Shown piece by piece: positions 3,547 through 43,458 of a stretch of DNA of 64,000 nt. This DNA comes from Maribacter algarum (ex Zhang et al. 2020). Its GTDB lineage: Bacteria > Bacteroidota > Bacteroidia > Flavobacteriales > Flavobacteriaceae. The DNA is taken from positions 1,178,001 to 1,242,000 of the forward strand of contig NZ_VATY01000001.1 in NCBI RefSeq assembly GCF_005885635.1, written 5' to 3'. Positions within the stretch are counted from its first letter, which is position 1, and each line of letters begins with the position of its first letter. The notes under the pieces were generated by a model. That model saw only the letters and a list, made by a program, of their open reading frames with translations, ran no database searches and was not told where the DNA came from. Position numbers and translations under genes: made by a program.

Positions 3547-5223
3547 CTATTCCAAACTATCCTGAAGTACCTCAACCGCTTTTGTTGTTAAAGAATCAAC
3601 TTCCATAACTGGTATTGAATCCATTTCTGGGAGCTGTTTTATATCCAAATCATTTTTGTTTGGATAGAGTTGTTCATCGGTCAAATTTTCAGAAGCTTTC
3701 CAAGTTTCCCCCAATTGATCTAGAATTGTTGTTGTCCATCTTGAAGGGTGTTTGGCGTCGATCCATATTACATCTCGATATTCAGCGTCAACCAAAGCTA
3801 AATCAGGAGTAGCGGCACCATCGAATTGTTTACTATCATCTTTTACGGCCGCAACTGTACCCAAAACGAACATACGTTTCTTACCAGCAATATGTTTTAT
3901 GAATGGGCGAAATTCCACGGGTTTATTTACAGACCAATCGTATTCCTTTTTCGATTCAATCACCTTTAAAGGCATAGCGGATACGCCGGCATAACCTTCT
4001 TTTTTGGCCGCATGGTCGTAATAATACAACTTCTGGGAGCCATCTGCCGGAATCATAACACTAAAGGCTAAACTGGTTCTTTCATCGCCGATAGGTTCCA
4101 GACCGAACCAATGGTAGAGTCCGTCTACCGCATCTGTTTTCATACCTTCAAAATTGAAGTCCGTTACATAAGGTTGTTGATTTTGGTCTTCTGGCAATTC
4201 AGGAATTTTTACCGCTGTTTTCATATTCCAGGGGAGTGGGTCAGTGAATCCGCCTAAAAATTGGAGTGACTGTGCTTGCAATTGCGAAATGCGTTCTGCA
4301 ACTGTATTCTGCCCTTTCAAATAGGGGTGGTTTTTGATTTCATCAGGCGCGATATACGTCCCTTTACCAATGGTAACACGCTCCATATAATCATTAATAT
4401 CATGTTCACCAGAGTCAACCACCATTACGCCTCCATAAGTCGGATAAGGAAAGAAAAAGCCTTTCCATTTAATCAAGTTTACTACTTGTACCCATTTGTC
4501 TTCATCATTTTTCATGTAGAACACATCGCTTGGTTCCATAGTGAAAAGTTGAAAGAAATTGAAACGCTGAACTACAGCATTGTACGTATTGCGACTAAAT
4601 GCTAAAGATTCCCCAATTGAAAAAGTTACTGGAACGCGATTCTCGTTCGAAAACCTTGGAAAAGGTGAAGTACTCTCCACCATAAAAATCTCTTCGGTAT
4701 TGTCATTCATTCGCTGCCAAGTATATTCTTTAGCAGGTTGTACGGCCATAGTCCATTGGTTCGTACTATCGACACGTACGAGTTGCGGTAAGGAAACTTC
4801 CTGAGTCTCACCCACGGACTCGTAGGCCATAGTAACAATATTATTAAAAGGCTGAATTCGTTCGTTTTGAGTCAAGGGGAGTTCATCCAACTGCTCTAAA
4901 TTCAGATTGTTGAAGACATTATAAGTCTGCATGTAATTGTAGAGATTCAGCTTCCATCCGAAGAACCATAGCGTAGCAAAGAAACCAAAGATTCCCACTA
5001 AAATTAAAATGCGTTTGCCTGTGCTAGCAGCGCTTCTGAACTTTGTTAGAGTTAGCCATAAGAAACCAATTCCTAGAAGGATAATGAAAATGTACTTTCT
5101 TAGAAATAAGAGAGCTGGTTGGTAGTCATCTCGAAGAAAGAACAACAGTAATATCATAACGATTGCGCCTAAAATGACGATTCGTTTTTGCCTCTTTCCC
5201 TTATTGTAGTATGATTTGATCAT
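3547..5223 (-). CDS. Membrane-anchored protein of unknown function (AAA+ cluster, last gene)
   Basis: I do not recognise a named family. The 558-residue protein starts with a very basic stretch, then three hydrophobic segments at about 17-32, 43-60 and 70-92, followed by ~460 residues without further obvious membrane spans. The soluble part is rich in aromatic residues and beta-strand-like stretches (WKGFFFPYPTYGG, GLYHWFGLEP). It is the last gene of a minus-strand run that begins at 12086; the gap to the DUF3592 gene before it is 21 bp, so co-transcription is likely. The ATG at 5223 directly precedes the basic and membrane part, which supports this start. Function is unknown; by context it may be the membrane anchor or effector of the AAA+ cluster (inference). 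Confidence 0.7.
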   Translation of the reverse strand: MIKSYYNKGKRQKRIVILGAIVMILLLFFLRDDYQPALLFLRKYIFIILLGIGFLWLTLTKFRSAASTGKRILILVGIFGFFATLWFFGWKLNLYNYMQTYNVFNNLNLEQLDELPLTQNERIQPFNNIVTMAYESVGETQEVSLPQLVRVDSTNQWTMAVQPAKEYTWQRMNDNTEEIFMVESTSPFPRFSNENRVPVTFSIGESLAFSRNTYNAVVQRFNFFQLFTMEPSDVFYMKNDEDKWVQVVNLIKWKGFFFPYPTYGGVMVVDSGEHDINDYMERVTIGKGTYIAPDEIKNHPYLKGQNTVAERISQLQAQSLQFLGGFTDPLPWNMKTAVKIPELPEDQNQQPYVTDFNFEGMKTDAVDGLYHWFGLEPIGDERTSLAFSVMIPADGSQKLYYYDHAAKKEGYAGVSAMPLKVIESKKEYDWSVNKPVEFRPFIKHIAGKKRMFVLGTVAAVKDDSKQFDGAATPDLALVDAEYRDVIWIDAKHPSRWTTTILDQLGETWKASENLTDEQLYPNKNDLDIKQLPEMDSIPVMEVDSLTTKAVEVLQDSLE

Positions 5224-34146: not shown

Positions 34147-34275
34147 GGCAAACCCTCTCTTAGAGTGAGGTCGAGCTTTTCGCTATATTTTTTTAGGGAA
34201 TAAAAGCCTAAAAAAGATGCCGCTGCAATCCCTTTTGCAAAAAAACCCACTTTCTTTTCCTACATAAAAGTGCAG

Positions 34276-34371
34276 TTCGTCGAAGAAATAAAACTGTTCA
34301 TATTTTTCACAACATCGTAGCTTCACTTCACAACAATAATTTAGATTGGTCAAGAATCATCTATATCTTTA
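34276..34371 (+). promoter_or_regulatory. Activator sites and -7 box of small RNA unit A
   Basis: TTC-containing repeats start at 34276 (in TGCAGTTCGTCGA), 34297 (GTTCAT), 34306 (TTCACAACA) and 34327 (TTCACAACAATAATTTAG). Spacings are 21, 9 and 21 bp. TATCTTTA follows at 34364-34371, exactly 37 bp after the last repeat. Units B and C share this layout. Two helical turns between direct repeats fits LytTR-type regulators (inference). Confidence 0.7.
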
Positions 34372-34377
34372 CCATGT

Positions 34378-34497
34378 TATTAAGTGATAGTTTGACCCAA
34401 TATCAATACTTAAAACCTACAAGCTTACGGAATACCAAACCAAATTAACCCAAACCTACTTTTTACAAAAGCCCTCCAGATTGGAGGGCTTTTTTTA
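34378..34497 (+). ncRNA. Candidate small RNA A
   Basis: About 120 nt between a predicted start just after the -7 box and an intrinsic terminator. The 5' part shares ATTAAGTGATAG and TTGACCC with unit B. CCTACTT is at 34455-34461, just before the terminator, as in B and C. A 24-codon frame (ATG at about 34374) is not conserved in the other units. It lies in the 648-bp gap between hflX and the secreted protease; I see nothing definite in 34147-34270, and only a possible protease promoter in 34498-34794. Confidence 0.6.
34471..34497 (+). terminator. Intrinsic terminator of RNA A
   Basis: Stem GCCCTCCA (34471-34478) with TGGAGGGC (34482-34489), a 3-nt loop and an eight-base T-run (34490-34496 region). 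Confidence 0.9.
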
Positions 34498-34794: not shown

Positions 34795-37155
34795 ATGAGA
34801 AAAAATTACTCAAAATTACTCTCTTTAATTTTATTTTTTGCCCTAATTAGTTCTAGTGTTCAAGCCCAACAAGCTGATTTAGAAAAACGGCTTGAAATAA
34901 TTAAACAGTCTCAAGAAAATTTAAAAACTGGGCAATTGATGAGCCCCGATCTAGCTGAAATTGCAGAAGGCAAGCTCTCTATCTTTAACCAAAATAAGTA
35001 TATAATTCGAAATGGAGAAGTATTCCTGATAGCAAGATGTAAATCAAATGTAAACGCATTGGCCGATGAACTTAGAACTCTCGGAGCCAAAAAAATAAAA
35101 AAGTACAACCGAACGGTAACTTTCCGCTTAGCTGTAGATAAAGTTATGCAGTTAAATAATTGTACTGAACTCAGTTATGCCAGACCTGAAATAAAACCGC
35201 ATGCCCAGGTAGGTTCTGTTGAGAACGAAGCGTTCGAATCATTAAAAGTAAATCTGGTATCGAAACGTTTTGGACTTACAGGAAAGGGCATCAGAATTGG
35301 TGTTTTATCCGATAGTTATAATACTTTAGGCGGAGAGGCTGCTGGTATTGCAAGCGGTGATCTTCCCGGACCGGGTAATCCTAATGGTTATGAAACACCA
35401 GTAACGGTGTTGTCAGAACTAGAAGGAGGCACAGGTATTGACGAAGGTAGAGGGATGATCGAGTTAATCCATGATTTAGCTCCAGAAGCCGAAATATTCT
35501 TTTACTCAGCATTCAACGGTTATTTTGATTTTGCCGATGGCATAAGAGCTCTAGCTGATGCCGGATGTGATATCATCGTTGATGATATTATTTATTTTGC
35601 AGAACCTTACTTTCAAAATGGTGCAATTGCCCAAGCGGTCAATGAGGTTAGCAAAGGTGGTGCAGCTTATTTCAGTTCTGCAGGAAACTCCGGAGAACAG
35701 TCTTATGAAAGTGATTTCAGAGCGGTCAATCCTTTAAATGTCCACGATTTCGATGACGGAGAAGGTGTCAATTTTTTCCAAAGAGTTGAGGTGGCCTCAG
35801 GACAACAACTTAATTTATTTCTACAATGGGATCAACCGAGTCCATTTTTCACTGATGGTCCCGGCGCAACAGACGATAGACTAGAGACGAATCTAGATAT
35901 TTTCGTTTTTGACCCAGATAGCGGGGCACTTATCTTTCAGACTACTAGTTTAAATACCGACGATAATATTGAAGGTATTGGTTTTACCAACAATGGTCCT
36001 GATAGTTTCATTTTCGATATGGCCGTAGTAAAACAATCAGGCCCTGATCCTCAAAGGATAAAGTGGGTAAACTTTGGAAGTGACTTAAATGTTACGTTTG
36101 ACACCAACAGTTCAACGGTTGTAGGGCATGCCAATGCCCAGAGAGCTATAGCAGTTGGAGCGGTTGCATTCTTTAGGGTAGAAGGTTTTCAAGATCGCCC
36201 TTCTACGGATATCAACGGATTTTCTTCACTCGGTGGTACGTTCTTAAGACTTAACGACAACGGATCACGTAAGCGTCAGCCTTTAGACACTAAAAAACCA
36301 AACATATCTGCCACTGATGGGACAAATACTACCTTCTTCGGAAATGATATTCCTGATATTATTGGTGGCGTGCCGGTAGAAGAAGATACGAATCCTAATT
36401 TCTTCGGAACCTCAGCCGCTGCACCACATGCCGCTGCTGTAGCTGCTTTAATGCTACAGGCCAACCCTGATTTGGCACCTAATAAAATTAGAAATATTTT
36501 GCAGAATACAGCAAGTGATATGGACGACCCTTTAACCGAAGGATTTGATAGTGGATATGATAGAAAAACAGGCCATGGGTATGTTAATGCAGTGAAAGCG
36601 GTTAGGCGGGTTATCGCACAAGTTGGTACAGAAGACCTTGAGCTTTCCCCTGTTTGTACCGATGATAATGATACGGAACTCAGATGGCAGGTTGACAACC
36701 CCAATCCGTTTAATGTTAAGTACGACTTCAGAATTTTGGGCACGGGTCAGAAGGGTGAATTAGTTGCCCTACCAGGAGAAAATTTCTTTCTTAGTCAAAC
36801 CGTTCGCGGACAAAATAAGGCAAGAATCAAATGGGATATAAAAGGTGAAAGTAAGCCAGGTCGTGCTACCGCAACTTTCGACTTCGACGATTGTGATGAT
36901 TCAGATACTGGAAAAGGTCTTGTTGTTCATCCGAACCCGATTCGTAATTATGCGACTGTTTCATTTAATTCGAATGAAAATAAACATAGTTATGTAAATG
37001 TTCGGAAGCTCAATCCGACGGCCCCTATCGTGCTTAGTGTTCCTGTAACACTTTGTGAGGGGGAGAATAATTTTCACATTGATTTTTCTTCTTTGAAGAA
37101 AGGACTTTATATTCTGGAACTTGAAGGAGTAACCAAGAAAATCATTAAGAAATAA
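34795..37155 (+). CDS. Secreted S8 (subtilisin-like) serine peptidase with C-terminal sorting domain
   Basis: A 786-residue protein with a signal peptide (1-~25, ending VQAQ). Catalytic Asp is in IGVLSDSYNT near residue 180, His in GMIELIHDLAPEAE near 228, and Ser in FFGTSAAAPHAAAVAALML near 543; the oxyanion Asn is in SSAGNSGEQ. This spacing, with Asp and His motifs close together, fits the S8 subgroup common in environmental bacteria. The last ~85 residues (LVVHPNPIRNYATVSF ... GLYILELEGVTKKIIKK) resemble a type IX secretion type-A sorting domain, so it is probably exported across the outer membrane. A terminator follows at 37180. Confidence 0.9.
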   Translation: MRKNYSKLLSLILFFALISSSVQAQQADLEKRLEIIKQSQENLKTGQLMSPDLAEIAEGKLSIFNQNKYIIRNGEVFLIARCKSNVNALADELRTLGAKKIKKYNRTVTFRLAVDKVMQLNNCTELSYARPEIKPHAQVGSVENEAFESLKVNLVSKRFGLTGKGIRIGVLSDSYNTLGGEAAGIASGDLPGPGNPNGYETPVTVLSELEGGTGIDEGRGMIELIHDLAPEAEIFFYSAFNGYFDFADGIRALADAGCDIIVDDIIYFAEPYFQNGAIAQAVNEVSKGGAAYFSSAGNSGEQSYESDFRAVNPLNVHDFDDGEGVNFFQRVEVASGQQLNLFLQWDQPSPFFTDGPGATDDRLETNLDIFVFDPDSGALIFQTTSLNTDDNIEGIGFTNNGPDSFIFDMAVVKQSGPDPQRIKWVNFGSDLNVTFDTNSSTVVGHANAQRAIAVGAVAFFRVEGFQDRPSTDINGFSSLGGTFLRLNDNGSRKRQPLDTKKPNISATDGTNTTFFGNDIPDIIGGVPVEEDTNPNFFGTSAAAPHAAAVAALMLQANPDLAPNKIRNILQNTASDMDDPLTEGFDSGYDRKTGHGYVNAVKAVRRVIAQVGTEDLELSPVCTDDNDTELRWQVDNPNPFNVKYDFRILGTGQKGELVALPGENFFLSQTVRGQNKARIKWDIKGESKPGRATATFDFDDCDDSDTGKGLVVHPNPIRNYATVSFNSNENKHSYVNVRKLNPTAPIVLSVPVTLCEGENNFHIDFSSLKKGLYILELEGVTKKIIKK

Positions 37156-39574: not shown

Positions 39575-40270
39575 CTACCCTTCGGCAGGCAAGTTGATTT
39601 CAAATGTTAATCCGACACCTCGAACACTTTCTATAGCAATGTTTGAATCTTGCTTAAAGTATTTCCGAAGTCGGCTTATGAATACGTCCATGCTTCTCCC
39701 TGAGAAAAAGTCGTCGTTGCCCCAAACGTCTTTGAGGAGGTCTTCGCGTTTTATCATTCTATTTTTATGTTCATATAGATATTGTATCAAAACGGTTTCC
39801 TTTTCCGTTAAACGCTGCTCTTCGCTTTTAAAACTTAGTTTGTGGTTTACAGCGTCAAACTGATATAAACCTATGGTAATTAGCACTTCTTTTTTCGGTT
39901 GAATTTTTCGCATGCGCTTCAAAATATTTTTCATTCGAAGAACTAAAATGTCTGCCTCAAAAGGTTTTACGATATAGTCATCAGCTCCTAATTTCAAACC
40001 TGTAATTCTATCTTCTTTTAGCTTCTTTGCGGTCAGAAAAATAAAAGGTACTTCCGGGTTTAATTCCACCACCTTTTCTGCTAAGGTAAAACCATCCATT
40101 TTTGGCATCATCACATCAAATACGCAGATATCGAAATGGTCTTTTTCAAAACATTCCAAAGCTTCCTTACCATCTTTGGCCCAAGTGACCTGATAGTCAT
40201 GTATTTCTAAATACTGTTTTAAAATACTTCCGAAATCAAAATCGTCTTCTGCTAATAATACGTGTGTCAT
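39575..40270 (-). CDS. OmpR/PhoB-family response regulator
   Basis: A 231-residue two-domain regulator. The receiver domain has the acidic pair at 9-10, phospho-acceptor Asp52 in CVFDVMMPKMDG and the switch lysine in DDYIVKPF. The C-terminal winged helix (about 130-228) has LTEKETVLIQYLYEHKNR and DVFISRLRKYF, followed by SVRGVGLTFEI. It lies 6 bp after the kinase gene. Its likely binding sites are the TTAAC repeats upstream of the kinase gene (41737-41837). Confidence 0.95.
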   Translation of the reverse strand: MTHVLLAEDDFDFGSILKQYLEIHDYQVTWAKDGKEALECFEKDHFDICVFDVMMPKMDGFTLAEKVVELNPEVPFIFLTAKKLKEDRITGLKLGADDYIVKPFEADILVLRMKNILKRMRKIQPKKEVLITIGLYQFDAVNHKLSFKSEEQRLTEKETVLIQYLYEHKNRMIKREDLLKDVWGNDDFFSGRSMDVFISRLRKYFKQDSNIAIESVRGVGLTFEINLPAEG

Positions 40271-40276
40271 ATAATC

Positions 40277-41665
40277 TTAACTAACCGGTATATTAATAAT
40301 AAAACTAGTTCCTTTATTTACTTCACTCATTAATGAAATGCTTCCATCATGCGCATCTATTACCTGTCTCGTGTAATACAGACCAAGACCTAACCCTTTA
40401 ACATTGTGAACATTTCCAGAAGCCACCCGATAGAATTTCTCAAAAACTTCCTTTTGGTGTTTGTTTGAAATTCCTATTCCGTTATCCTGAATTTCGATTT
40501 CATAATGATTGTTCCTTAATCGAGTGTTGATCTTTATTTCTATGGATTCCTTTCCATATTTTACCGCATTTTCAAGAATGTTGAACAAGGCCGTAGTGAA
40601 TAAGAATGAGTCAATGCGAAGCACTACCTCTTTAGGTTCAATATATTTTTGAATCGTTAAATCTTGACTCTGAACGGACAAAGAAAAATCTTCAATGATA
40701 TTCCTAAAGTAATCATCATCGATTACTTGTTCTTTATTTAAAACAAAATCCTCCGACCCCAAACTATTGGTCATGACTTGGTCAATAAGCTTTTGTAACC
40801 TTGAATTCTGACGGTCAATAATACCAAGTGTATTTTCGAAAATTGCGGGCGACTGCAATATTTCCTTTTGCCTTAAGCTCTTGGAAGCCAAGCTTAAAGT
40901 AGCAAGGGGCGTTTTAAGCTCATGCGTTATGTTATTGATAAAATCCGATTTAACATCAGCTACTTTTTTTTGCTTGATTAAATTCTTAATTGAGTAATAA
41001 AATAATCCAGTCACGAAAAGAAATACCAAAACTGAAGCTATTAACAAACCTGCCATTCGGCCTAAAACTATTCTTTTCCATTCTGAAATACTCATTTGAT
41101 CTCTTGTCGTAACTAGAAACTCAAAAGTTCTTGCTACTCCTTGGTCATCAATTTGAGTATAATCGGTTTGCCATCTTGCCTGACTTACACGGTAACCTTC
41201 TTCATCTTTAAAATTCTCTCCAAGTACAAAAATCGGGTTCTCTTCGTTGAATGCAAATACCGTGTCGTTTGCAACAGAATCTAGAATAATGATAGAATAT
41301 ATGTTCTTCTTAAACTGAACATCATACCCCAAATTTGATTTTCTTACTTCATTCTGATATAGTTTGTTAAATGCCTTGGATAAAGAGTCTCTTTCAGTTC
41401 TTAACTCGTTCAAAAACTCATCTCTACCTAAATTCTCGAATCTATATTCCCAAAGAAGCTCAACAAACTCCTGTCCCCATATCTCTGCGGTCTCAACCAC
41501 CAATTCCGCCTCGTCATCTAATCTTCCAATAGCATCTGAGGTTTCGTTCAAAAATGCCTTCTTCTTTAGTTCGTAAGTATTATATATGAGATAGACCTGA
41601 ATACTTGTTAAGGCTAATAGTGTGATTATTGCGGTTACAATAAGTATGTTTATTCTTTTCTTCAT
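40277..41665 (-). CDS. Membrane sensor histidine kinase
   Basis: A 462-residue kinase with membrane segments at about 8-28 and 205-226, enclosing a ~175-residue periplasmic sensor domain of no recognised type. The HisKA box has His248 in NNITHELKTPLATLS; the ATPase domain has NILENAVKYGKE (N box), IEIQDNGIGIS (G1) and GLGLGLYYTRQ (G2). It opens a five-gene minus-strand operon (kinase, regulator, serine hydrolase, two secreted paralogues). A TACTTTTG -7 box (41692-41699) lies about 27 bp before the ATG. Confidence 0.95.
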   Translation of the reverse strand: MKKRINILIVTAIITLLALTSIQVYLIYNTYELKKKAFLNETSDAIGRLDDEAELVVETAEIWGQEFVELLWEYRFENLGRDEFLNELRTERDSLSKAFNKLYQNEVRKSNLGYDVQFKKNIYSIIILDSVANDTVFAFNEENPIFVLGENFKDEEGYRVSQARWQTDYTQIDDQGVARTFEFLVTTRDQMSISEWKRIVLGRMAGLLIASVLVFLFVTGLFYYSIKNLIKQKKVADVKSDFINNITHELKTPLATLSLASKSLRQKEILQSPAIFENTLGIIDRQNSRLQKLIDQVMTNSLGSEDFVLNKEQVIDDDYFRNIIEDFSLSVQSQDLTIQKYIEPKEVVLRIDSFLFTTALFNILENAVKYGKESIEIKINTRLRNNHYEIEIQDNGIGISNKHQKEVFEKFYRVASGNVHNVKGLGLGLYYTRQVIDAHDGSISLMSEVNKGTSFIINIPVS

Positions 41666-41736
41666 GGTTTGCTATTTGACTGGCAACAGTTCAAAAGTAG
41701 AACAAACCCTAATTTTCGCATAAAAAGAAAACATCG

Positions 41737-41837
41737 TTAACCCACCATTAACGTTAATTCTACCGCAACCCCTTTTATTTAAGAAGTTTTAACCGCTTTG
41801 TTAATTGGCAGATTAACAAGTAAATGTATTCATTAAC
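41737..41837. promoter_or_regulatory. TTAAC repeat cluster upstream of the kinase operon
   Basis: TTAAC or TTAAT boxes start at 41737, 41748, 41754, 41789, 41801, 41813 and 41833. The pair 41737/41748 is spaced 11 bp and 41789/41801/41813 by 12 bp each, close to one helical turn. OmpR/PhoB-type regulators bind direct repeats with about 11-bp spacing (the Bacillus PhoP box is TTAACA-like). The cluster is 38 bp or more upstream of the kinase -7 box, which suggests autoregulation by the adjacent regulator. Confidence 0.5.
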
Positions 41838-41905
41838 ATTAAAAACAAACTCAAAGCTCCTCTTATGGACTAAAAAATAAGACTAGTATTTGTTGTTGCA
41901 TGTAA

Positions 41906-42001
41906 TTCATCGAACAAGAAAACCCGTTCATCCGAGACACAACATTATAGTATCCATTCACAACAATAATTTAGAAGAACCTAGAAACCACTATATCTTT
42001 A
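41906..42001 (+). promoter_or_regulatory. Activator sites and -7 box of small RNA unit B
   Basis: TTC-type repeats start at 41906 (AATTCATCGA), 41927 (GTTCAT), 41936 (GACACAACA, degenerate) and 41957 (TTCACAACAATAATTTAG). The 21, 9 and 21 bp spacings equal those of unit A, and TATCTTTA at 41994-42001 is again 37 bp after the last repeat. No TTG is seen at -33, consistent with activator dependence. Confidence 0.7.
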
Positions 42002-42007
42002 CATTGT

Positions 42008-42186
42008 AATTAAGTGATAGTGTTGACCCCAAATCGCCCCTTGAACTTAACTTAAATGTTGAATGTATCTTTTCCCAAATCGATACTTAGCCTAAAAAGC
42101 TTAAACCGATTTAAATCGGAACTCAAATTTTACGATAAACCTACTTATTAAAAAAAGCCCTGAATTACTTCTGGGCTTTTTTATTG
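42008..42186 (+). ncRNA. Candidate small RNA B
   Basis: About 175 nt from the predicted start to an intrinsic terminator. It shares ATTAAGTGATAG and TTGACCC near the 5' end with RNA A, and CCTACTT (42140-42146) before the terminator with A and C. Frames are short; a 32-codon frame starting near 42056 has no counterpart in A or C. It lies in the 860-bp gap between the kinase gene and the DUF3078 gene, directly ahead of unit C. Confidence 0.6.
42151..42183. terminator. Intrinsic terminator of RNA B
   Basis: AAAAAAGCCC (42151-42160) pairs with GGGCTTTTTT (42173-42182) around a 12-nt loop. The A- and T-runs on both sides make it usable in either direction. Confidence 0.8.
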
Positions 42187-42225
42187 ATTATCAATTATTT
42201 GTTATTGTATCAAAATAGCGTGCAG

Positions 42226-42322
42226 TTCATCGATTAAACCACACATTTTAACGCAGTTCACAACAGCTATTGATTCGTTCACAACAAAAATTTATTGGTG
42301 CGCCCCATGAAATATACATTAG
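42226..42322 (+). promoter_or_regulatory. Activator sites and -7 box of small RNA unit C
   Basis: GCAGTTCATCGA (TTC at 42226), a degenerate site near 42247, TTCACAACA at 42257 and TTCACAACAAAAATTTA at 42278. The last two are 21 bp apart, and TACATTAG (42315-42322) starts exactly 37 bp after the last. A TTGG lies 16 bp before it. The layout equals that of A and B apart from a 1-bp shift and one weakened site. Confidence 0.65.
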
Positions 42323-42328
42323 TCATGT

Positions 42329-42500
42329 ATTTGAGATTTAGTGTAATGTCCCGATGAAACTAATCTTAACCGAAAATTTTAAGTATTTGGATTGTGCCCA
42401 AGTTTTTACTTGACCTGAAATTTGATTTTATTGACTGTAACAACCAAATTTACGAATCCTACTTAACTAAAAACGCCCTGACAATGTCAGGGCGTTTTAC
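42329..42500 (+). ncRNA. Candidate small RNA C
   Basis: About 170 nt ending at a strong hairpin. Its body has diverged from A and B, but a GTGTAATGTCCC stretch matches their GTGATAG-TTGACCC segment loosely and CCTACTT (42458-42464) precedes the terminator. No frame longer than about ten codons opens with ATG near the start. The terminator is shared with the convergent DUF3078 gene, so the RNA could overlap that gene's 3' UTR. Confidence 0.5.
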
Positions 42501-42506
42501 ATTTTC
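42471..42506. terminator. Bidirectional terminator between RNA C and the DUF3078 gene
   Basis: ACGCCCTGAC (42473-42482) pairs with GTCAGGGCGT (42486-42495) around a 3-nt loop; T-rich tails occur on both strands. Confidence 0.9.
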
Positions 42507-42525
42507 TATAATTTTTGTCTCGACA

Positions 42526-43458
42526 CTATAAAGAATAGTTCAAGCCAAACAACCAGTAACTTTGCGTATTTGCATCAGTAGTTGCAAGAGTGGCACCAGG
42601 GTTTGCTCCAAGCGCAAAAGATTCTTGTTTGTTACCTCTTAAGCCAAACTCAAATCCAAGTCCAATTCCTTTCCACAAAGTATAACCGAAAGAATTTATC
42701 CAATTCCAGTTTGATAAGTCCCCACTCTTATAGCTTTGAAATGTAGAGAAGTTAGATTTAAAATTAACAGCTCCTAACTGTCTTGTATAATCAACTACGA
42801 TTTTAGCTCCGGTAGACGATTCGTAGGCTGCATCCTCTTCGGCAAATATGAAGTTGTAATTTAACGGGTGAACCACTACAACCATACCTTCAATAGGTAA
42901 CCAAGTAGCACCTATACCGATATCAAGGTAACCAGGGTTATTGAATTCATTAATTGAAGAACGAAATTCCCCTAAGGCCGATACTGCGAACTTTTTGCTC
43001 AAATTATAACCAAACAGGGATGTAAAATTGATTACATCTGTAGTTGGGTTAAATTTATCAGCATCTTCAGCTGGATTTTCAGCGTCCTTATCCTGTAACT
43101 TCACCCATTGAAGATTAACATTTGCAGAATTGTTCCAAAAGTATTTCTCTTTCTTCAAATTGGCGAAACCGTTAAGAGCAATACCAATGTTTCCGGCTGA
43201 GTTATTCGGCGTCGCTTGCTGATACCAATTATTTGAACCTGATAAGTTAGCTCCAATTGTGCCGAAAATTCCTTTTCGCCATCCAGGCAAACCATCGATT
43301 TCACCTTGAATGGCATCGATTCTTCCTTGAATAGCAGCAATCGAGTCGGCTTTAGGGCCTAACATTGCTTTAAGCTCTTCCGCTTTTTTTGTATCGTCTT
43401 GTGAATAGGTAAATGCCCCAGCAAATACCGTAAGCGCAACAAAAATTAATTTTTTCAT
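42526..43458 (-). CDS. DUF3078 outer-membrane beta-barrel-like protein
   Basis: A 310-residue protein with a signal peptide (1-~19, ending TYSQ), a short coiled segment (KAEELKAMLGPKADSIAAIQ) and then alternating beta strands ending in an aromatic-rich WLFGLNYSL, as in outer-membrane barrels. WRKGIFGTIGANLSGSNNW and the later WNNSANVNLQW fit DUF3078. Function is unknown for the family. A TACCTTTG -7 box is at 43496-43503. Confidence 0.8.
   Translation of the reverse strand: MKKLIFVALTVFAGAFTYSQDDTKKAEELKAMLGPKADSIAAIQGRIDAIQGEIDGLPGWRKGIFGTIGANLSGSNNWYQQATPNNSAGNIGIALNGFANLKKEKYFWNNSANVNLQWVKLQDKDAENPAEDADKFNPTTDVINFTSLFGYNLSKKFAVSALGEFRSSINEFNNPGYLDIGIGATWLPIEGMVVVVHPLNYNFIFAEEDAAYESSTGAKIVVDYTRQLGAVNFKSNFSTFQSYKSGDLSNWNWINSFGYTLWKGIGLGFEFGLRGNKQESFALGANPGATLATTDANTQSYWLFGLNYSL

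Follow-up and report, generated by a model that had tools for sequence, protein, structure and literature searches.

Predicted tandem small RNAs under LytTR-type repeats and their complementarity to a second small RNA in Maribacter algarum and related bacteria

Small RNA (sRNA) sponges, LytTR-controlled RNAs and multicopy sibling sRNAs are already known from other systems. Sponge RNAs such as SroC and the chbBC spacer titrate an sRNA and relieve its targets. LytTR sites are direct 9-bp repeats of 9-12-9 layout, 21 bp apart and upstream of the promoter; in Gram-positive bacteria, LytTR-type regulators acting on such repeats drive a regulatory RNA in the pairs AgrA-RNAIII and VirR-VR-RNA. To our knowledge, neither RNAIII nor VR-RNA stands in an antisense relation to another sRNA family. 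According to the accessible sections of the respective papers, LhrC1-5 of Listeria monocytogenes are multicopy sibling sRNAs under one two-component system with the regulator LisR (PMC4132741); FopS and GibS of Bacteroides thetaiotaomicron represent, with RbpB, a multicopy sRNA family, FopS being found in Bacteroidaceae and pairing near the start codons of surface-protein mRNAs (PMC11697453); and the Rfp RNAs of Flavobacterium psychrophilum, for example Rfp18, are sRNAs mapped by RNA-seq, 45 of them non-antisense (PMC9723704).

Here we analyzed three predicted sRNA units of Maribacter algarum, termed A, B and C, which match a second sRNA, D, encoded elsewhere in the genome. A/B/C resemble SroC and the chbBC spacer in the proposed titration of an sRNA, but they are dedicated multi-site genes in tandem, have their control boxes in common with the targets and belong to a different phylum. 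With RNAIII and VR-RNA they share the 9-12-9 repeats, and they differ from them in being antisense to an sRNA family. LhrC1-5, as far as the accessible text goes, are similar multicopy siblings with redundant C-rich pairing sites in each copy; they pair with mRNA, whereas A/B/C match another sRNA and lie under LytTR-like repeats (PMC4132741). D is, by description, somewhat like FopS and GibS in having a single-stranded 5' part and a terminator, and the accessible part of that account contains neither 'sponge' nor 'LytTR' (PMC11697453). D may be among the 45 non-antisense Rfp sRNAs and hence have been seen already as a transcript; the accessible account of these RNAs is without the term 'LytTR', and its sRNA section names no sponge (PMC9723704). 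A text search of the literature, which rarely reaches sequences and covers few subscription papers, yielded no account describing D, A/B/C or their combination.

Layout, control region and distribution of units A, B and C

The window, a stretch of 64,000 nucleotides (C1:1178001-1242000) of the 5.1-Mb genome, contains three units overall, as observed in the original prediction. B and C lie inside the 860-bp gap between a kinase gene (start 41665, minus strand) and a DUF3078 gene (end 42526), and the third copy, A, lies 3' of hflX (stop 34146), in agreement with the places given there. The units have a common design of 9-bp boxes, a -7 box, a body of 89-143 nt and a terminator, with no conserved frame (Table 1). 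The prediction had counted two complete designs in the gap, which is correct for B; C lacks box 2 and has a weak -7 box. The length of 170-180 nt applies to B and C with the terminator included and not to A, which measures about 116 nt. The predicted starts, defined as box 3 + 72 nt, coincide with those proposed before.

Table 1. Positions of the predicted features of units A, B and C in the window, and of one box-driven gene in a separate locus (last line).
Feature	Position	Strand	Remarks
Unit A	34276-34493	+	
A control region	34276..34335	+	boxes at 34276, 34297, 34306, 34327 (steps 21/9/21); conserved in 92 units
A -7 element	34364..34372	+	TATCTTTAC; position conserved
A predicted sRNA	34378..34493	+	body and terminator; start inferred as box 3 + 72 nt
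A CCTACTT	34455..34461	+	complementary to D hairpin loop
A terminator hairpin	34467-34493	+	
Unit B	41906-42182	+	
B control region	41906..41965	+	boxes at 41906, 41927, 41936, 41957; box 3 is GACACAACA
B -7 element	41994..42002	+	TATCTTTAC
B predicted sRNA	42008..42182	+	body and terminator
B D site 1	42027..42051	+	CCCCAAATC, gap, TGAACTTAAC
B D site 2	42074..42081	+	CCCAAATC
B CCTACTT	42140..42146	+	directly before terminator
B terminator hairpin	42151-42182	+	
Unit C	42226-42498	+	
C control region	42226..42286	+	boxes at 42226, 42257, 42278; box 2 absent
C weak -7 element	42315..42323	+	TACATTAGT
C predicted sRNA	42329..42498	+	body and terminator
C CTTAACC	42365..42371	+	complementary to D
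C CCTACTT	42458..42464	+	before terminator
C terminator hairpin	42470-42498	+	
MEAQ-type conserved protein	L234 about 3700-3990	minus	MEAQMNAPTQKEIQVYKNDFFSGIIMLTRKLFML; under boxes

In A and B the boxes begin with TTC at offsets 0, 21, 30 and 51; in C the distance from box 1 to box 3 is 31 instead of 30. The A/B/C promoters thus show the 9-bp direct repeats 21 bp apart that mark a LytTR-type promoter. Boxes 3 and 4 read TTCACAACA-N12-TTCACAACA. Allowing up to three mismatches, this pattern has exactly three sites in the window (those of A, B and C), compared to a mean of 0.15 in the shuffled window, where none of 100 shuffles reached three. The whole genome contains 43 such sites, versus 12 for the reversed control.

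Related units were collected by their boxes with up to five mismatches, and the 223 candidate sites were reduced to 168 by removing repeats and short ends. We kept 149 units with up to four mismatches and a terminator 130-280 nt downstream; subtracting 10 small-protein mRNAs left 139, and reduction by similarity gave 92 non-redundant units, part of them from loci found by similarity to B and 57 from loci found by boxes only. A terminator was present in 151 of the 168 box-collected units, versus 4 of 168 shuffled sequences, and the terminators of the 92 units have 83 distinct stem arms. In the 92 units, information content has maxima at the boxes, at a TAnnTTTAC element located 58 nt downstream of them, and at TGTAATTAAGTGATAGTG, which covers the inferred start and the positions that follow it. 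Directly after this start, the stretch TTAAGTGATAGTGTTGA is conserved (42009-42026 in B, with an equivalent position in other units); it is without complement in D and might serve as a second seed or as a protein site. A conserved reading frame, which the original prediction had named as an observation that would speak against sRNAs, is absent from the 92 units, whose longest open reading frames scatter from 0 to 44 aa, and a coding function of A/B/C was rejected. The family thus combines a promoter and a terminator with the lack of a conserved frame, as independent non-coding sRNAs do.

A scan of named genomes with YACAACA-N12-TTCACAACAWWAATTTA yielded 87 stretches. Among the 80 listed, the hosts were mostly Maribacter, Zobellia, Muricauda/Allomuricauda/Flagellimonas, Eudoraea and Cellulophaga, followed by Pseudozobellia, Euzebyella and other or uncultured Flavobacteriaceae, a few bins labelled just Bacteroidia, Bacteroidetes or Flavobacteriales, and single records of Algicola sp. 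and Cytophaga sp. By tblastn, hflX was found on 48 of the 87 loci, DUF3078 on 53, and genes that we take to be SufE-like and SufT-like on 44 and 42, respectively. All 40 named loci holding both hflX and DUF3078 have the box pattern between them, and the ancestral order therefore looks like hflX, one to four units, DUF3078; 21 loci have one of the two genes and 26 neither. Other genomes carry 1-4 units at this place. Some box units lie elsewhere, and some are small-protein mRNAs. By similarity to B, 22 genomes match; G015, G022, G045, G047 and G049 match in the terminator only and were not counted as A/B/C holders. In this genome, A and B are separated by an S8 protease gene, an OmpR-type regulator-kinase pair, small genes and what we read as a beta-lactamase-like gene. 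The S8 protease (34795-37155) has a type IX secretion tail domain and is part of the segment that splits the A-B/C array.

Flavo-1 (RF01705), which had been suggested as a possible relative, accounts for the sole Rfam gathering match in the window, which scores 52.3 bits and lies at 34165-34243 on the minus strand, opposite in orientation to A, immediately upstream of that unit and outside A/B/C. Flavo-1 is absent among the 25 sub-threshold Rfam matches in 41600-42600 (E up to 5), none of which comes near its gathering score, and B and C have no Rfam gathering match. Kinship of A/B/C with Flavo-1 was therefore rejected, the units being without a covariance-model match at gathering score. The other part of the earlier interpretation stands: conservation, synteny, terminators and the lack of a conserved reading frame make it well supported that A, B and C, as predicted transcripts, are a sibling sRNA family with common control sites.

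Complementarity of the unit bodies to D

A search with the conserved body words located an array of D at C1:1599.2-1600.1 kb (minus strand), flanked by genes that are presumably sodA and purF. In this genome the array consists of four tandem units of ~74 nt, each with a TAnnTTTG-like promoter, CCATAGCATAAGTAGGTTAAGTTCATGGTAAGATTTGGGG and a terminator, in this order. The predicted fold of D is a small hairpin whose loop region contains AGUAGGUU, followed by a single-stranded GAUUUGGGG and the terminator. In contrast to the variable promoter and hairpin, the 40-nt seed hardly changes across 85 collected units, although similarity to the seed was the basis of their collection and accounts for part of this invariance; 79 of the units have a TAnnTT-type -7 box. 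D promoters carry two weaker boxes of the same kind, 21 bp apart and at the same distance from the start, and D is therefore possibly co-activated. A covariance model detected D in 199 of 249 Flavobacteriaceae genomes, representing 189 of 235 genera, at 1-7 matches per genome; by BLAST, 30 of 59 genomes had D, among them this one and, through the hairpin alone, G049. A search of the D array against Rfam 15 (E<=1) gave 46 matches, none of which reaches the gathering threshold.

The conserved body words CCCAAATC, GAACTTAACC and CCTACTT are reverse complements of D, CCCAAATC matching GATTTGGG and CCTACTT matching AAGTAGG. Twelve of the 40 most enriched body 7-mers of the 92 units occur without mismatch in the reverse complement of the 40-nt seed, against a background of 25 matches in 4039 distinct body 7-mers (hypergeometric 7e-19, ignoring relatedness). 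The 57 boxes-only units gave the same 12 of 40, versus 24 of 3097. The top words, CCTACTT (82 of 92 units) and CCAAATC (57 of 92), lie opposite the loop and the single strand of D. The last CCTACTT is located 7-20 nt before the terminator in 80 of the 92 units, and 10 lack the word.

Duplex energies, calculated leaving out the RNAs' own folding, pointed in the same direction. The mean for the 92 units with D was -29.5 kcal/mol, compared to -19.1 for shuffled bodies and -18.6 for shuffled D, and each of the 92 lay below both of its own control means (common descent ignored). For the 57 boxes-only units the mean was -29.9 versus -19.0 with shuffling, each of the 57 being below its own shuffle mean. 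When 200 composition-matched 40-mers drawn from the window were scored, a single one outdid D, namely the antisense strand of B. The family thus shows the extended complementarity to an sRNA encoded elsewhere that is expected of sponges. In this genome it is clear for B (-37.6; 0 of 500 shuffles), marginal for A (-22.6; 39 of 500) and not significant for C (-22.4; 94 of 500).

Genome-wide, CCCCAAATC was in excess (61 vs 12), and most of the 30 sites viewed were not leaders. A general start-codon motif, ACCTACTT-N0-28-ATG, was discarded as it showed no genome-wide excess (122 vs 147 for the reversed control). CTTAACCTACTT with one mismatch allowed was below control (32 vs 137). Its five exact matches fall on the four D units and on a further unit, E, in each case on the antisense strand. 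Unit E lies on C14 at 289.6 kb between two convergent genes, with TGCAGTTCATCGATG upstream and a terminator. Its sequence, CCCAAATCTTACCAAACTTAACCTACTTA, is complementary to nearly all of D (-49.7 kcal/mol), and the stretch also occurs in seven other genomes of the genus (L266-L272).

A candidate LytTR regulator and the box-driven mRNAs

Control of the units by the adjoining OmpR-type response regulator and kinase (39575-41665) is unlikely, matches being found on only 8 of the 87 named loci, a count that includes paralogues at 28-40%. The genome encodes 24 LytTR domains. Our candidate regulator (C12:450096-450851) has a receiver and a LytTR domain, and its gene is followed directly 3' by a box pair with one mismatch and then by a gene for a TPR-HisKA_2 kinase. 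Orthologues of at least 90% identity are present in 16 of 59 genomes, own included, and A/B/C occur in all 16 as well as in G001 (57% complete). In 15 of the 16, the 420 bp following the regulator gene include a box pair (up to three mismatches), 71-333 bp past the stop codon; from the whole-genome rate, chance would place a box pair in well under 1 of 100 such stretches. G011 has no box after the regulator gene. In 11 of these 15 leaders, the predicted D pairing of the first 70 nt behind the inferred start is equalled by no more than 10 of 200 shuffles, and the other four show no D signal. Because the next start codon, where found, follows 266-359 nt after the box pair, the kinase leader is long and its D site falls close to the 5' end. 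Being far from the start codon, it would require another mechanism of repression.

In the larger set, a regulator orthologue (E<=1e-90) was found in 50 of 249 genomes. By eye, all 39 genomes with the box pattern hold the regulator and none of the 199 regulator-less genomes has the pattern; the reversed control pattern gave 2 matches in the same 249-genome scan. The LytTR regulator and the box sites thus co-occur. At least three D matches were present in 50 of 50 regulator genomes versus 22 of 199 others, again compared by eye. Boxes, D copy number, DUF6747 (see below) and regulator may share a clade by descent, and the tests are uncorrected for relatedness. A second type of short RNA under the same boxes, sharing TTTTTTCATTTTCATATAGTGTTCTCGTAAAAG, was seen in L014 (~1500), L016 (~1500) and L360; in G031 (L360) it directly follows the LytTR regulator gene, and in L014 and L016 it has no Rfam gathering match.

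D-complementary sites are found on the box-driven mRNAs of the LytTR-system kinase, of two small-protein families and of some secreted proteins. For the MEAQ-type protein (33-36 aa; own copy without a Pfam or NCBIfam match), at most 12 of 300 shuffles match the D pairing of the leader in 8 of 10 cases. For DUF6747 (Pfam PF20532), of which 30 of 63 copies were examined, 7 of 8 copies with boxes (up to five mismatches) pair with D at <=2 of 100 shuffles, compared to 4 of 22 copies without boxes (Fisher 0.001). DUF6747 occurs in 20 of 120 genomes, 17 of which have the box pattern and all 20 the LytTR regulator (by eye). Among larger box-driven genes, 5 of 12 have a D site of -22 or below versus 14 of 148 controls (Fisher 0.006), and a rank test on D pairing gave p = 0.16; this excess is modest and only suggestive. 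The 12-gene test replaced a first control (8 genes, mean weaker than controls), because motif-selected loci had been included in that control and open-ended genes lost. A lipoprotein-like gene (L208/L023; C1:451.9 kb, minus strand) has CCCCAAATCTACTACTTATG over its start, two upstream TTCATC-type boxes ~30 bp apart and strong predicted pairing with D (-30.4); it was counted among the 148 controls.

Proposed circuit and alternative explanations

We consider it probable that the mRNAs under D control and the multi-site decoy RNAs that titrate D are turned on jointly by a LytTR system. The 9-12-9 direct repeats, at about -102/-81 and -72/-51, are the probable binding sites of the LytTR response regulator, which would activate transcription of A, B and C as non-coding decoy (sponge) RNAs. 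Their words CCCAAATC, GAACTTAACC and CCTACTT, often repeated, would pair in the cell with GAUUUGGGG and the loop AGUAGGUU of D, taking D out of action. Free D would pair with the box-driven mRNAs and repress rather than activate them. Its predicted sites lie around the start codon in the genes for DUF6747, MEAQ-type small proteins and some secreted proteins, and close to the 5' end in the long leader of the TPR-HisKA_2 kinase gene next to the regulator. In this way the regulator would raise its own mRNAs while simultaneously removing their repressor, forming a coherent feed-forward loop, with feedback of the circuit on its own kinase.

The roles of D as regulator and A/B/C as sponge are assigned on the basis of the wider range of D and the strand that the mRNA leaders share with A/B/C. 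The pairing itself is symmetrical, and A/B/C might be ordinary sRNAs regulating mRNAs, with the TTAAGTGATAGTGTTGA 5' stretch, lacking a D complement, as a possible separate seed, and D a sponge limiting them. We regard this as unlikely. Of the 210 genomes that lack the A/B/C box pattern, 160 have D, and the D seed hardly varies, arguing that D has a job without A/B/C. Moreover, the box-driven leaders carry the A/B/C strand and therefore could pair with D, but not with A/B/C.

Decoys of the CsrB/RsmZ kind offer a different model, in which A/B/C and the mRNA leaders would share a motif for an RNA-binding protein and the match to D would be secondary. The repeated C-rich words of A/B/C would suit such a motif, and Bacteroidota RRM proteins, RbpB for example, bind multicopy sRNAs according to the accessible sections of PMC11697453. 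Nevertheless, this explanation is quite improbable: enrichment is seen for three separate words of the D complement, and E matches the complement of D over nearly its entire length, an antisense gene that a protein motif does not predict. That the units are promoter duplicates ending at terminators and without regulatory function appears very improbable, despite the visible tandem duplication with diverging bodies and the poor C-D pairing in this genome, in view of words kept in place across genera, such as the last CCTACTT before the terminator, and of terminators kept with so many distinct stem arms.

Beyond the titration of D by decoys under LytTR control, we lean slightly towards a two-tier RNA circuit of Bacteroidota, in which D was captured in one large clade by a LytTR two-component system that would control the mRNA targets of D, its own kinase and anti-D genes, namely multi-site A/B/C and the near-full-length antisense E; D copies are higher in the genomes with the system. 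If this is true, D would be a core flavobacterial regulatory RNA outside Rfam 15, with a candidate regulator and testable targets, and A/B/C would represent a case of sRNA-sponging genes multiplied in tandem.
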